64,000 nucleotides of DNA, from NCBI RefSeq assembly GCF_020037015.1, contig NZ_JAIQDE010000009.1, positions 1-64,000 on the forward strand. The letters run 5' to 3'. The notes under the pieces were generated by a model, which saw nothing but the letters and a program-made list of their open reading frames with translations, was not told the DNA's origin and made no database searches. Source of the stretch: Corallococcus sp. AS-1-6 (lineage in GTDB: Bacteria; Myxococcota; Myxococcia; Myxococcales; Myxococcaceae). Positions within the stretch are counted from its first letter, which is position 1. The number at the start of each line of letters is the position of its first letter. Below, piece by piece: positions 5,294 through 10,354 of this stretch. A program made the translations under genes and the position numbers.

Positions 5294-6196
5294 ATGCGCG
5301 TATTCGTCACGGGTGCGTCTGGTTTCATCGGCTCGGCGGTGGTCCCTGAACTCCTGGGGGCGGGGCATCAGGTGGTGGGGCTTGCCCGCTCGGACGCTTC
5401 GGCCCGGGCGTTGGAGGCGGCGGGGGCGGAGGTGCATCGCGGTTCGCTGGACGATCCGGACAGCCTGCGCGCCGGGGCGGCGAAGGTGGACGGCGTCATC
5501 CACCTGGCGTTCATCCACGACTTCTCCCGCTTCGAAGACTCGGTGCGTGCCGACGCGCGAGCGATTGCAGCCATCGGCGCGGCGCTGGAGGGCTCCCAGC
5601 GGCCCTTCGTCATCGCGGCGGGGCTGTTGGGCCTGGCGCCGGGACGCATCGCCGTGGAGACCGACGCGGCGGCTCCCTCCGGGCGTGGCGCATCGGAGGC
5701 GGCGATGCTCGCGCTGGCGGGGCGAGGCGTGCGCACGTCCGTCGTGCGGCTTCCACCATCGGTTCACGGCAAGGGCGACCATGGCTTCGTGCCGCACCTC
5801 ATCGCCTCCGCGCGGCGGACGGGGGTGGCCGCCTACGTTGGAGAGGGAGTGAATCGCTGGCCCGCGGTGCACCGGTCCGACGCGGCCCGGCTCTTCCGGC
5901 TCGCGCTGGAGCGGGCCCCCGCGGGTTCGAGGCTCCACGCGGTCGCCGACGAGGGGGTGCCCGTCCGGGACATCGCGGCCGTCATCGGTCGCCGGGTGGG
6001 GGTGCCGGTCGAATCAAAGACGCCAGGAGAGGCCGGCGACTTCCTCGGCTTCCTGGGGAGCCTCTTCGCGCTCGACACGCCTGCGTCGAGCGCCCGCACG
6101 CGCGAACAGTCTGGCTGGCGGCCCGAAGGGCCCGGGCTCCTGGCGGACCTCGACGACGACCACTACTTCGCACCGGGCGCTGGCACGATTCTGTGA
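5294..6196 (+). CDS. NAD-dependent epimerase/dehydratase-like extended SDR
   Basis: A 300-aa extended short-chain dehydrogenase. MRVFVTGASGFIGSAVVPELLGAGHQVVGLAR is the Rossmann TGxxGxxG fingerprint (residues 6-13), followed by DDPDSL and GVIHLAF segments typical of NAD-dependent epimerases. The usual YxxxK pair is not evident in the middle section (SGRGASEAAMLALAGRGVRTSVVRLPPSVHG), so catalysis may be atypical or the protein may be a reductase-like SDR. The ATG at 5294 is chosen because AAGGAGCG lies at 5282-5289; an in-frame upstream ATG lies inside the palindromic operator. Expression is probably under the adjacent TetR repressor. Confidence 0.85.
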   Translation: MRVFVTGASGFIGSAVVPELLGAGHQVVGLARSDASARALEAAGAEVHRGSLDDPDSLRAGAAKVDGVIHLAFIHDFSRFEDSVRADARAIAAIGAALEGSQRPFVIAAGLLGLAPGRIAVETDAAAPSGRGASEAAMLALAGRGVRTSVVRLPPSVHGKGDHGFVPHLIASARRTGVAAYVGEGVNRWPAVHRSDAARLFRLALERAPAGSRLHAVADEGVPVRDIAAVIGRRVGVPVESKTPGEAGDFLGFLGSLFALDTPASSARTREQSGWRPEGPGLLADLDDDHYFAPGAGTIL

Positions 6197-6292
6197 GCGC
6201 GGTGGGGGAGCGCTGGACCGGCGGCGTCCTGCCGTCCGCATGAATGAGAAGGTGAGAACCCGCGAGACGCTCCCCGCCCGCGGCCACCTCAA

Positions 6293-6819
6293 AACCTGTC
6301 CGACAGTCGGACAGGTTCAAACAGCCGAATCCGCAAGGGCCCCCGGTTCACCCGAACCACCGAAACCTGTCGGACAGTCGGACAGGTTCAAACAGCCGAG
6401 CCCGCAAGGGCCCCGGTTCCCCCGAACCACCGAAACCTGTCCGACAGTCGGACAGGTTCTGGGCGGTCACGTCCGCCGGGTGACCTGCTCCCTCCGAGCC
6501 GCGAAAACCTGTCGGACAGTTCGGACAAGTTCTGGGCGGTCACGTCCGCCGGGTGCCCTGCTTCCTCCGAGTCGCGAAAACCTGTCGGACAGTCGGACAA
6601 GTTCTGGGCGGTCACGTCCGCCGGGTGCCCTGCTTCCTCCGAGCCGCGAAAACCTGTCGGACAGTCGGACAGGTTCTGGGCGGTCACGTTCGCCGGATGG
6701 CCCTGCTTCCTCCGAGCCGCGAAAGCCTGTCCGACAGTCGGACAGGTTTGGTGCGGTCGTGTCCGCCGGGGCGCCGCTCCATTCAAGCCTCGGAGACCTG
6801 TCGCACAATCGGACCGGTT
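6293..6819. repeat. Eight-copy ~72-bp tandem array with 25-bp palindromes
   Basis: Eight cores of 25-26 bp start at 6293, 6364, 6434, 6506, 6579, 6651, 6724 and 6795 (spacing 70-73 bp). The best cores are perfect inverted repeats: arm AACCTGTCCGAC, one central A, arm GTCGGACAGGTT. Some copies have one mismatch in the left arm (GTCGGAC), the fourth has an extra T, and the eighth is degenerate. Between cores two spacer types occur. Copies 1-2 share a spacer containing the pair GGTTC/GAACC; copies 3-6 (and weakly 7) share one containing GGCGG/CCGCC around TCACGT. The array occupies most of the 681-bp gap between convergent genes, so it does not sit at a promoter. No convincing gene lies in the gap. 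Confidence 0.92.
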
Positions 6820-6877
6820 CAGTCGGTCATTCGTGGAGACCCGAGCAGGGACTGCTTGCCGCACCCCACCGGTGGGG

Positions 6878-9800
6878 TCATTCCGGCGGCAGCTTCGCGA
6901 GGGCTCGACGCAGATCCTCGCGCAAGCTGTTCGCGTCCTTCCACCGGGGGCGCGCGGTGTGCACGGCCTCGATGAGGGACAGCGCCTGCTGGAGGCGGGC
7001 GCGTGCGTCCGGGCCGGAGGCCGTCGCGCTCCAGTCGCGAAGAAACGCGCTGTAGGCCAGACGTGGCTCCAGGTTCTCGGGCTCCAACTCCAGCGCCTTC
7101 TGGAAGTCGCTCGCCGCGGCCTGGAAGGACGCGTCCGGCTTCTGGCCCCTGCGGACCTCCTCGCGAGCCTGGAGCGCCCGCACTTCACCCCTCCAGCGCC
7201 ATGCCAGCGCGAGAGACGGGTTGAGCTTCAGCGCGCGCTCCAGTGCTTCCGTGGCCTGGACGAGCGCCGGCCGTGGGTCCCTCCCATGTTTCAGCGCGTA
7301 CGCGGCCACGGTGTGGTGCACCTGGCCCAGGTTGGCCCACGGCTCCGCGAGTCCCGGCAGCAACGTGGTGGCCTGCTGGAGCTCGGCCTGGGCCTCCTTC
7401 GCGCTCGCGGTGGGGTCCTGGTCGCGCGACAGGCTCCAGGTCGCGCGCCACATGCGCACCTCGCCCAGGTTGTTGTGCGCGAAGCCCACCTTGGGCGCGA
7501 TGGCGATGGCCTGGACGAAGGCCTGCTCCGCCTGGTCCAGCAGGGGCTTTGGCGAATCTCCCCGGTCCCACGCCTCGCGGGCCTGGTCGAGCAGGATGGT
7601 CCCCACCCCGTTCTGGAGCGGCGGCAGCTTCGCGTTGATGGCGACGCCCCGGCGGTAGGCCTCCAGCGCACGCGCGAGCCCGGGCCCGGCGTCACCGCCG
7701 TGGTCTCGCAGGCGCAAGGCGAGCGCGCGGTGCACCTCCGCCAGATAGAACCACGCGACGACGTGCCCCGGGTCCAGCCTGCTCGCGCGCTCCAGCGCGG
7801 CCCGGGCCTCTTCCAGGTCCGCGTCCTTCGACGGTGCACGCGGATGGTTGGCGCGGTTCACATACGCCGTGCCCAGGTTGATCCACGCATCCGGCCGCTT
7901 CGCGTCCAGCGCCAGCGCCTGCCGATAGGCCGTGATGGCCCGCTGCCGGAATGGCAGTGAATCCCCGCCGCGCCCGTCTTCCGAGTCCGCCCACACCTTG
8001 AAGACGAGCCCCAGGTCCAGGTGGAAGTCGTAGTCGCGCGCGGACTCGGGAATGGATTCGAAGGCGGCGACGGCGGCCCGCAGTTGCTCGCGCGGATCCT
8101 CGTTCCGGTCCTGACGGTAGCGGGCCCACTGCCACCAACCCATGGCCAGCGCGTGGCGCGCCTCCACCTTCCCGGGAGCGAGCCTCAGCGCCTCCTTCGC
8201 CGCGTCGAGCGTGCGCGTCAGGAGCGGCACCACGTCGCCTCCACTGCTGAGGCTCGCCTGGGCCAGCCGCCGGTGCAGCCAGGCCTCCAGCACCCAGGTG
8301 TCCGCTTCATCGGGGGCCGCCGTGCGCGCCCGTGACACGGCCTCCATGCCGCGCGTGTACGCGGGCAGCACGTCCCCCTTGCCGGACAACTCCAGGAGCA
8401 GTGCCTCCCGCTCCAACTCCGCCCGCGCGCGGTGCACGGCGGACACGCTGCGGCCGATGTTCGCCGCCGCGCCGTAGGCCCGCCGTCCGGCCTCCAGGTC
8501 CTCCCGGGCCGCGTCCCGCTCACTCGCCAGGGCATGGCGCACGGCGCGAGCGAGCAGCACGTCGCCCCGGAGCAGCGGCGCCTCGTGGAACCACGGCAGC
8601 CGCGTGCCCAGCGCGTCCAGCGACTTCAGCGCGTCCTCGAAGCGCTCCTGATGGAAGGCGCGGAGGGCCTCCGCGTATTCCGGGGCGGGCACCTCCGCGC
8701 CCCGGCCCTGCTCCAGGAAGGCCAGCGCCGGGTCCCGGGAGCGCGTCCAGGCCTCGCGCCGCTTCGCCTCGCGGCGGTCCGCGTCCGGGATGCGGTCCGC
8801 CTCCAGCCGCTCGCGCTGGTAGCGGTGGCCCAGCACCAGCGCGAGCGCATACGCCACGCGGGGCTCGCGGAAGCCCTTCGCCCAGGCGGCCTCCAGGTGC
8901 GTGAGCGCGGCCTCCTCGTCCCCCAGCGCGAGGAACCCGCTCCCCAGCGCGTAGTGGCCCGGGCCTTCCGCGACGGGACCGGCGTCCCGCATGGAGGCCT
9001 CGATGTCCCGCATGCGGGCGCGCATCGCCTCTCGGTCCGGCCGCGTGTCGTGCAGGGGCGCCTGGCCGGAGTAGCGGGCCTGGGCCTCGATGCGCTCGAC
9101 GCCTTCCGTGAAGCGCCGGGCCAGCGACTCGCGGCGCGACACCTCCCGTTGCGCCATCACGCCCTGGCCCACTGCGCCCGCCACGGCGAGCCCGGTGAGG
9201 CTCGCGACGACGACGGCGGCCCGGTGACGCGCCACCCACTTGCGCACCCGGTACGCGGGGCCCGTGCGCGCGAGCACCCGGTCCCCTTCGAGGAACCGCG
9301 TGAGGTCGTCCGCCAGCGCTCGCGCGGAGCCGTACCGCCGGGAGCGGTCCTTCTCCAGGCACTGGAGGACGATGGCCTCCAGGTCCGCCGGAATGCCGGC
9401 GTCCAGCTCCCGCGGCCGGCGAGGCTCCTGGGTGGCGATGCGCCCGAGCACCTCCAATCCATTGGCACCCGTGACAGGCGGTTGGCCGGTGAGCAGGTGG
9501 TACAGCGTGGCGCCCAGGCTGTAGACGTCCGCGCGCCGGTCCAGCCGGGTGACCTCGCCCCGGGCCTGCTCGGGGGCCATGTACTGGGGCGTGCCCAGCA
9601 CGGTGCCGGTGGCGGTGGCGGCCTCGTCGCTGGTCCAATCGCGCGCCAGACCGAAGTCCATCACGTAGGGGCGCTGGGCGCCGTCCTCGCCGCGCTCCAC
9701 GAGGATGTTGGACGGCTTGAGGTCTCGGTGCACGAGCCCGGCCAGATGGGCCGCGTGGACGCCCAGCGTGGCGTCGCGAAGCACGAGCGCCTTCTGCTCC

Positions 9801-10354
9801 ACGGACAGCGTCCCGGCGAGCGTGTGCAGCGGCGCCCCCGCGATGTACTGCATGGCGATGTACGCGCGGCCCTGGACCTCACCGACCTCGTACACGCGGC
9901 AGACGCGTTCGTGGTCCACGCGGGCCTGGGCGCGGGCCTCGGAGATGAAGCGGCGGGACAGCTCCGGGTCCTCGTCGCGCACGAACTTCAGCGCCACGTC
10001 GCGGTGCAGCCGCAGGTCCCGCGCGAGGAACACGCGCCCCATGCCGCCCTGACCCAGGAACCTCACGGGCCGGTAGAGCGTCCAGTGCGGCACCGGGAAC
10101 GCGGGGCCGTCCGTCACGGTGGAGGGGGCGGCCCCAGGAGGCAGCGTGTCGTCCGCGGTGCCCGGCGTCTCCACGTCCAGGCTCCGGCGCAGCGACACGA
10201 GCGATTCCTCGGTGAGCCGCCCGCGCTCCACGAGGAGCCGCAGCGGGGAGACGCCACGCCGGAGCGCTTCCTCGCGCAGGGGCTCCATGTCCTCGCGGGA
10301 GAGCAGGCCCTCGGCCAGGGCCATGCGCAGCTCCGCTTCGTTCGCCTCAAGCAC
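6878..10354 (-). CDS. Transmembrane Ser/Thr protein kinase with TPR-rich C-terminus
   Basis: A 1158-aa Hanks-type kinase. The order is: a short helical N-terminal region (1-60), kinase domain about 94-360 with GQGGMG loop (101-106), VALK lysine K123, catalytic HRDLKPSN (209-216) and DFG (233-235), one transmembrane helix about 380-399, then about 750 residues of helical repeats with TPR character (AWINLGTAYVNRA, LAEPWANLGQVHHT). All catalytic residues are intact, so it should be active, with the TPR part outside the membrane. The GTG at 10354 is chosen by alignment with its paralog at 49112-52666; an ATG with GGAG at 10324 is the alternative. The much longer open frame upstream is antisense to other genes. 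The last codons lie about 60 bp from the palindromic repeat array. Confidence 0.88.
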   Translation of the reverse strand: MLEANEAELRMALAEGLLSREDMEPLREEALRRGVSPLRLLVERGRLTEESLVSLRRSLDVETPGTADDTLPPGAAPSTVTDGPAFPVPHWTLYRPVRFLGQGGMGRVFLARDLRLHRDVALKFVRDEDPELSRRFISEARAQARVDHERVCRVYEVGEVQGRAYIAMQYIAGAPLHTLAGTLSVEQKALVLRDATLGVHAAHLAGLVHRDLKPSNILVERGEDGAQRPYVMDFGLARDWTSDEAATATGTVLGTPQYMAPEQARGEVTRLDRRADVYSLGATLYHLLTGQPPVTGANGLEVLGRIATQEPRRPRELDAGIPADLEAIVLQCLEKDRSRRYGSARALADDLTRFLEGDRVLARTGPAYRVRKWVARHRAAVVVASLTGLAVAGAVGQGVMAQREVSRRESLARRFTEGVERIEAQARYSGQAPLHDTRPDREAMRARMRDIEASMRDAGPVAEGPGHYALGSGFLALGDEEAALTHLEAAWAKGFREPRVAYALALVLGHRYQRERLEADRIPDADRREAKRREAWTRSRDPALAFLEQGRGAEVPAPEYAEALRAFHQERFEDALKSLDALGTRLPWFHEAPLLRGDVLLARAVRHALASERDAAREDLEAGRRAYGAAANIGRSVSAVHRARAELEREALLLELSGKGDVLPAYTRGMEAVSRARTAAPDEADTWVLEAWLHRRLAQASLSSGGDVVPLLTRTLDAAKEALRLAPGKVEARHALAMGWWQWARYRQDRNEDPREQLRAAVAAFESIPESARDYDFHLDLGLVFKVWADSEDGRGGDSLPFRQRAITAYRQALALDAKRPDAWINLGTAYVNRANHPRAPSKDADLEEARAALERASRLDPGHVVAWFYLAEVHRALALRLRDHGGDAGPGLARALEAYRRGVAINAKLPPLQNGVGTILLDQAREAWDRGDSPKPLLDQAEQAFVQAIAIAPKVGFAHNNLGEVRMWRATWSLSRDQDPTASAKEAQAELQQATTLLPGLAEPWANLGQVHHTVAAYALKHGRDPRPALVQATEALERALKLNPSLALAWRWRGEVRALQAREEVRRGQKPDASFQAAASDFQKALELEPENLEPRLAYSAFLRDWSATASGPDARARLQQALSLIEAVHTARPRWKDANSLREDLRRALAKLPPE

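Follow-up and report, generated by a model that had tools for sequence, protein, structure and literature searches.

The 64-kb window analysed here, the whole stretch of 64,000 nucleotides from Corallococcus sp. AS-1-6, carries an array of eight near-palindromic units between two convergent genes, and we consider it probable that this is one of many intergenic arrays of the genus that represent putative sites of a multi-copy FadR-type GntR regulator and serve as platforms outside promoters. A first-pass annotation had offered a protein-binding cluster, a cruciform-forming element and a mobile MITE-like repeat as options; the first of these is now the best supported, the core of the units being a palindrome that recurs upstream of genes for FadR-type GntR regulators. 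Neither the link to a regulator nor the replication-related polarity described below was among its suggestions.

The eight-unit array and its core

The units fill positions 6293-6819 with successive starts 71, 70, 72, 73, 72, 73 and 71 bp apart, and TRF reports a 72-bp period at 6363-6820; starts and period thus agree with the earlier description of eight units of about 72 bp at 70-73-bp intervals. The location between convergent genes was likewise borne out, both flanking genes being called by a crude gene caller, and the two spacer types that had been proposed can both be distinguished by eye. The features are as follows:

5411 to 6196, plus strand: left convergent gene (crude gene caller; start uncertain, the ORF from 5252 also being open)
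6293 to 6317, plus strand: core unit 1, a perfect 25-bp palindrome with a central A
6364 to 6388, plus strand: core unit 2, a G-G mismatch variant
6434 to 6458, plus strand: core unit 3, a perfect palindrome
6506 to 6531, plus strand: core unit 4, with a 1-bp insertion
6579 to 6603, plus strand: core unit 5, one mismatch to the pattern
6651 to 6675, plus strand: core unit 6, a G-G mismatch variant
6724 to 6748, plus strand: core unit 7, a near-perfect palindrome
6795 to 6819, plus strand: core unit 8, degenerate, three mismatches to the pattern
6318 to 6363 and 6389 to 6433, no strand: the two type A spacers flanking unit 2 (by eye)
6459 to 6505, 6532 to 6578, 6604 to 6650, 6676 to 6723 and, diverged, 6749 to 6794, no strand: type B spacers of units 3 to 8 (by eye)
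6878 to 10354, minus strand: right convergent gene (crude gene caller; start uncertain)

From a sequence motif, the left gene would encode an SDR/epimerase-type protein, and the right one looks, by eye, kinase- and TPR-like. The orthologous array of the related genome G018 has spacers that, by eye, resemble type A and type B.

The core, AAACCTGTCSGACAGTCSGACAGGTTT, had been described as a near-perfect 25-bp palindrome, which holds for units 1, 3 and 7 and not for units 2 and 6 (G-G mismatch), unit 4 (1-bp insertion), or units 5 and 8. When up to three mismatches are allowed, its pattern matches 13 times in the window, both strands counted, where 100 shuffles average 0.03; unit 4 escapes it because of the inserted base. 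A logo built from one unit per locus at 53 loci (from the window genome and contigs of named Corallococcus genomes) confines strong conservation to positions -3 to +23, AAACCTGTCSGACAGTCGGACAGGTTT: the core positions hold about 0.6-2.7 bits, whereas the arms hold at most 0.5 bit, in weak symmetric C-rich and G-rich patches. The palindrome ends in AAA and TTT, and the consensus reads as an A-run, a stem and a short T-run. Each 25-27-bp core contains GTC-N-GAC twice, with centres 8 bp apart and symmetric about the central A/T; the middle N is loosely held: C or G predominates here, whereas four exact sites of G042 have A or T.

As a selected feature, the cruciform option was not supported. Among 267 units, an excess of pairing over shuffles was found only at positions 2/18, the test running from 2/18 outwards to -9/29 and including 6/14, with the other inner pairs fixed by the search seed. 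At 6/14, G-G occurs in 79 of the 267 units and C-C in nine, and hence the centre base seldom flips alone. Folded as single-stranded DNA, window units 1, 3 and 7 give strong hairpins and units 2 and 6, with their stem G-G mismatch, weaker ones, while units 4, 5 and 8 are close to shuffled sequence in this respect, which folded at least as well in 48, 43 and 142 of 200 cases. Single folds suggest an extended outer stem around singletons; the comparison across loci extended out to position -9. We prefer to regard the core as a sequence that is recognised in double-stranded DNA, and not as a hairpin under selection. No match above the gathering score was obtained in Rfam for five loci, including the window array (L064), and no sigma-70-like site was found at 6150-6900. 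A CRISPR-like array was set aside because the spacers of one array resemble each other, and an attC-like integron site because the order of boxes, judged by eye, spoke against it.

The core is dispersed, as a genome-wide count that the first-pass annotation had proposed makes clear. In the window genome (9.5 Mb, 82 contigs) it has 175 forward and 172 reverse matches at up to two mismatches, against none for a reversed control; since the pattern is nearly palindromic the two counts are mostly the same places, which makes at least 175 places in all, and 78 places have the exact core. The 44 clusters that were read hold 144 cores at up to two mismatches, with two or more cores in 27 of them. At up to one mismatch the core is found in 24 of 96 family genomes. 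These include every one of the 16 genomes in the window's genus, where the number of forward matches runs from 5 to 193; five species of the genus are down at 5-10. A scan of named genomes for tandem cores returned nine stretches, all from Corallococcus (seven C. interemptor, one C. exercitus and one C. carmarthensis), several of which align at 85-93% with the window genome's own loci. In G041, three copies at different places (L135, L143, L151) agree at 98-99% over 94 bp, and for two of them the likeness extends over 157 bp, which suggests recent spread. G006, in which the GntR gene treated below is absent at E<=1e-20, has eight dispersed copies of about 70 bp (L080-L087), several with similar arms of the form CCTCCGG...CCGGAGG.

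Same-strand successive cores less than 170 bp apart are spaced at 65-74 bp in 164 of 268 cases, the peak lying anywhere from 66 to 72 bp across loci, a range wider than half a helical turn, so that strict helical phasing is not general. The suggestion that all sites face one side of the helix is thus weak as a general rule.

The left flanking gene is present in 15 of the 16 genus genomes, and we compared eleven places with 82-100% identity to it. Against the eight units of the window genome, 11 were detected in G018 (flank 90% identical) and four, with a different spacer, in G016; G017, G019 and G020 have one unit each, the latter two with two mismatches, and G022 has one core and one variant (by eye) past about 1.2 kb of other sequence. 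No unit was found in the 27-bp gap of G028, within the 847-bp gap of G029, or in 900 bp in G021 and G026, where right-hand synteny was not found. Unit number thus ranges from 0 to at least 11 between species, while across the 53 loci the core is kept against drifting arms. At two further loci of the window genome (L066, L075), single units correspond to arrays of nine and eight detected units in G018, whose outer flanks match the flanks of the single unit by eye. From these alignments we infer that arrays expand from within, by duplication of the core with about 23 bp of each arm.

A GntR regulator family linked to the core

When the window genome's loci are compared with each other, similar blocks of 1-2 kb adjoin cores, and these hold a gene, missed by our gene-calling script, for a GntR protein (PF00392 at E about 1e-12 in four proteins, with an FCD match at 0.02 in one of the four). 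A model of its first 235 residues (pLDDT 88) has as its top PDB match the FadR-DNA complex 1hw1 (E 5.5e-7, TM 0.62), and a second FadR-DNA entry, 1hw2, matches at TM 0.65; the 50 fold matches listed are GntR-type regulators. In the first 14 gene loci compared, the far edge of a core lies 141-146 bp before the start in 12; in L048 it lies 132 bp before it, and L097 has a C-centred variant at that place. Extending this to distinct upstream regions in the genus (genes at E<=1e-60; no more than a single substitution allowed within the inner 15 bp of the core), we found a core in 28 of 28, centred 106-139 bp upstream and mostly at 131-134. Such gene-adjoining cores are on the gene's strand in only eight of 13 cases.

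The sequence of the core points in the same direction. For operators of the FadR subfamily, PMC4494728 gives the consensus GTM-N0-1-KAC, in which GT and AC are typically 3 nt apart, and adds that weaker boxes often occur at 7-12 nt from the centre; GTC-N-GAC fits this consensus, with the same 3-nt distance, and the paired boxes of the core share the geometry. The operators described regulate nearby operons, whereas here we find tandem arrays mostly outside promoter gaps. Likewise, the E. coli FadR probe for fadL contains CTGGTCCGACC (PMC4259882), which is close to core variants beginning CTGGTCCGACAG.

Some further features of the gene loci may be recorded. Most GntR paralogs read (L068, L155, L188-L207 and others), among them ones that lack a palindrome, have, by eye, a promoter-like block about -75 to -35 from the start, such as TGTCAGACCCC...TTGGATGG, with a possible likeness to RecA-independent damage promoters. 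In L059 and L069, the cores ahead of the GntR gene are spaced about 135-141 bp apart instead of 72 bp. A core-like sequence also lies inside the 3' part of the coding region in L068 (1541-1573), L043, L097, L150 and L155, reading LSDSRTG or a close variant, and other paralogs are without it.

Gene and core tend to occur together. At E<=1e-20 the gene is present in 27 of the 96 genomes of the family, and 49 further genomes of the order gave no match (27/145). Both gene and core are present in 22 family genomes, the gene alone in five (G002, G005, G007, G039, G051), the core alone in two (G006 with eight cores and G025 with nine, all with one mismatch; gene absent at E<=1e-20) and neither in 67. 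The association has p = 7e-15 over the 96 genomes and 2e-6 outside the window's genus, values that carry no correction for phylogeny; in genus g19 (27 genomes) the single genome with the gene is the single genome with the core. Copy numbers of gene and core within the window's genus correlate at rho 0.78, again uncorrected for phylogeny: the window genome has 11 gene matches (two of them pieces at contig ends), and the nine genus genomes richest in cores have 8-15. In the more distant genus g3, all four genomes whose genes were read (G002, G003, G005, G007) have an altered 25-bp palindrome 182-273 bp upstream, with 11 of 12 pairs formed and at most two substitutions from the core in its inner part. 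In G079 a core with one mismatch to the pattern lies 131 bp upstream of the gene. No core-like site was found within 420 bp upstream in G041, G042 or G080 (one gene copy read in each, gene and core both being present) or in any of 20 copies read from G037 and G039, genomes with many gene copies (at least 29 and 16, respectively) and almost no cores. Outside the window's genus and g3, the GntR gene thus appears usually to be without an upstream site. Overall, the upstream cores, operator geometry and co-occurrence make a GntR protein the likely reader of the arrays.

The paralogs evolve unevenly along their length. Five of the nine full copies in the window genome (L043, L059, L067, L068, L069) share 96-98% identity over their first 235 residues, and the remaining four are about 81-89% identical to L068, yet the tails of the five are only 29-40% identical in the six pairs compared. 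L043 and L097 of G018, whose orthology was set by flanks on both sides, are 86% identical over the first 235 residues and 57% over the tails, and the N-terminal half of L043 is closer to its own paralogs than to L097. Since the two genes sit at orthologous places, gene conversion can explain this likeness without movement, and the simplest reading would be that some members of the family undergo such conversion in their DNA-binding half. In a tree of 56 sequences, tight groups unite 10 of 10 copies from G037, 8 of 10 from G039 and 5 of 9 from the window genome; its other copies and those of G018 do not form such groups. Two G037 loci (L192, L194) share a longer upstream flank, and the rest of the ten read differ past the promoter-like block, so that the copies of this genome appear to sit in different contexts. 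Some paralogs look like a case of concerted evolution, the DNA-binding half being kept uniform within a genome while the tails diverge.

Gene neighbourhood and orientation along the chromosome

The first-pass annotation had argued from the 3' ends flanking the window array that the units are not simple operators, and the wider sample agrees. Gaps of at least 60 bp that hold cores are convergent in 22 cases, divergent in seven and tandem in 47, as against 17, 62 and 115 for gaps without cores, an enrichment of convergent over divergent gaps with odds 11.5 and p = 5e-7. This sample is of fetched loci from the window genome, G018, G028 and G029, selected, with one sample excepted, for holding cores; genes were called by the crude script, and gaps adjoining GntR genes that it missed were left out. 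In the 47 tandem gaps the cores lie a median of 79 bp from the end of the upstream gene and 178 bp from the next start, and three of the 44 clusters read in the window genome fall within called ORFs. Placement at the promoter of a regulated gene hence fails for most arrays, the exception being the core upstream of the GntR genes themselves, and most arrays thus differ from the usual operator of a promoter.

Because of its central A, which is a T on the other strand, the core has a direction, and this allowed us to compare its orientation with the travel of the replication fork. The three genomes used (G018, G029, G028) are one contig each; dnaA is at the start of G018 and G029, and the origin of G028 was put near 2.06-2.09 Mb by synteny before its sites were listed. 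With exact cores grouped within 2 kb, and among the places listed, loci up to 2.55 Mb from the origin run with the fork in 72 cases, against it in 10 and are tied in six (p = 1e-12, a pooled value that overstates independence as some loci may be shared by descent among the three genomes). Each genome is significant on its own (1.5e-5, 1e-4 and 2.8e-4), and without the loci just upstream of a GntR gene the counts are 62, 8 and 5. Beyond 2.55 Mb they are 28, 18 and 4 (p = 0.18). For G018 the count covers 100 of 141 places, up to 6.89 Mb, its left near-origin arm lying outside; the remaining 41 places are 12 on the plus and 29 on the minus strand. By synteny with G018, the strand of the window array is the one that runs with the fork.

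The polarity does not follow the genes. We read 48 clusters together with their genes, namely 28 of the 33 G018 loci at 0-2.5 Mb (four GntR-linked loci and 2432966 being left out), all 13 listed G029 loci at 6.85-9.1 Mb and seven from G028; 43 run with the fork, three against it and two are tied, though the seven, unlike the 72/10/6 count, were hand-picked from a minus stretch and push this total upwards. Where the genes of an untied tandem locus are head-on to the fork, the cores still run with it in 10 of 11 cases. Relative to their flanking genes, the cores of tandem loci have the same direction in 10 and the opposite in seven in the window genome, and in 19 and 11 among the 48 clusters, where 28 of these 30 run with the fork. 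Transcription is accordingly not supported as the cause, orientation being independent of the direction of the flanking genes. Base skew is too weak to account for the centre A: twelve 20-kb samples taken from G018 gave intergenic AT skews of -0.044 to 0.077. A symmetric pair of dimers supplies no reason for a polarity either.

Competing explanations and known systems

Several other explanations account for parts of these data. Genes and sites might proliferate jointly as a selfish regulator-operator family with the arrays as decoys, which we consider somewhat unlikely: the 8-15 genes of the core-richest genus genomes and the at least 29 of G037 would fit, as would the grouping of many paralogs by genome (10 of 10 read from G037, five of nine from the window genome), but G037 and G039 are rich in genes and almost without cores, the L043/L097 likeness is explicable by gene conversion, and no mobility enzyme was seen. 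It is unlikely that the cores mark chromosome polarity or segregation for a translocase or a partition-like system, in use like KOPS or the sites of SlmA, Noc or MatP, be the reader GntR or another protein. Their near-origin orientation and its independence of gene direction speak for this, whereas polarity is not significant farther out, where KOPS-like marks should be strongest, and five species of the genus make do with 5-10 forward matches.

A REP- or MITE-like palindrome spread by a transposase, with some units later amplified in tandem, would agree with the dispersed, lineage-specific copy number, with a site that is empty in some species and filled or expanded in others, and with the near-identical G041 copies and the similar arms in G006, and a single-strand mechanism would suit the fork-related orientation. 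The earlier MITE-like option thus fits the spread. As regards machinery, the Y1/RAYT transposase (PF01797), the one transposase family searched, matches 13 of 96 family genomes and none of the 16 of the genus at E<=0.001; nor, in the few copies inspected, was a target duplication or terminal repeat identified. The dispersed genus copies moreover share the core and little arm sequence, and hairpin pairing is not kept where testable, so that we hold a mobile palindrome to be clearly unlikely. Bidirectional transcription terminators or 3' mRNA hairpins, a very unlikely alternative in our judgement, would explain the convergent gaps, the proximity to gene 3' ends and the A-run, stem and short T-run of the consensus; however, a scan with a threshold of 5 T in 8 found no terminator-like site at 6150-6900 (0.8 in shuffles), the stem G-G mismatch affects 79 of 267 units, three of the eight window units fold no better than shuffles, and clusters of up to 12 cores, the regulator link and the polarity would be left unexplained. 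Finally, a neutral VNTR, as the first-pass annotation would have had it were the core to occur only here and vary freely, matches the change in unit number from 0 to at least 11; with the core dispersed across the genus and conserved against drifting arms, and with non-random context and orientation, we regard it as extremely improbable. Local control, termination, a transposon alone and neutrality all fit less well than titration or clustering of the regulator or a role at the scale of the chromosome.

For the arrays as GntR sites, we advance the following mechanism. Each core could take two GntR dimers, and the window array up to sixteen, with loading that would presumably be co-operative. 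Tandem duplication of the unit of about 72 bp would let arrays grow and shrink while the core is mainly kept. As most arrays lie outside promoters and near gene 3' ends, they would most likely act as platforms and not as switches of the adjacent genes, and such multi-dimer platforms might titrate or cluster the regulator or mark the chromosome. Against this reading speak the cores of G006 and G025 in genomes without the gene at E<=1e-20, the gene copies of G041, G042, G080, G037 and G039 that have no upstream site, the three clusters of the window genome inside called ORFs, and the polarity, for which paired dimers give no cause and which the gene-adjoining cores do not share with the gene's strand.

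Among the papers listed by searches on Myxococcus and Corallococcus repeats, GntR operators and replication-oriented repeats, none described the repeat or the gene family, and the closest parallels are partial. Like the arrays here, the STAR elements of Staphylococcus lie between genes and combine a short conserved core with longer spacers peculiar to each locus; their unit number expands and contracts, and their copy number does not follow species relatedness. The STAR core is, however, a 14-bp direct repeat, for which no regulator is mentioned in the account consulted (PMC3532100), whereas the core here is a 25-bp palindrome that is tied to a family of GntR genes and, near the origin, takes its orientation from replication. 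The likeness is one of build, without sequence relation. REP palindromes with RAYT are short, dispersed, extragenic and sometimes arrayed, with copy number varying between relatives, as here (PMC3733652); our case differs in a genus without a Y1 transposase, a hairpin that is not kept in every unit and a GntR regulator as the linked gene. REP palindromes are marked by GTAG or CGTC at one end, and the logo of the 53 loci has AAA and TTT at the ends. A precedent for several GntR dimers on repeats is NanR, a GntR-type repressor of which three dimers bind a repeat operator, although it represses genes of sialic acid metabolism and its repeat is different (PMC8012715).

Dispersed sites outside promoters with a chromosome-scale distribution or polarity are familiar from SlmA, Noc, MatP/matS and KOPS, which belong to other protein families; to our knowledge none is a GntR protein with 72-bp tandem arrays. 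In a bolder form of the regulator reading, which we put forward tentatively as a minority possibility, the GntR paralogs, with a common DNA-binding half and differing tails, and the many multi-dimer arrays outside promoters would make up a lineage-specific chromosome-marking system, laid down or selected along the travel of the fork near the origin and serving chromosome organisation or segregation in place of local control. A fork-oriented polarity of near-palindromic, non-promoter elements that is independent of gene direction is unusual, and it would be explained either by a new replication-tied route of insertion or by selection for a role at chromosome scale. Short dispersed palindromes of bacteria frequently lack a known reader, and for the arrays described in this study a candidate, together with its family, can be named, which opens the binding to direct tests.
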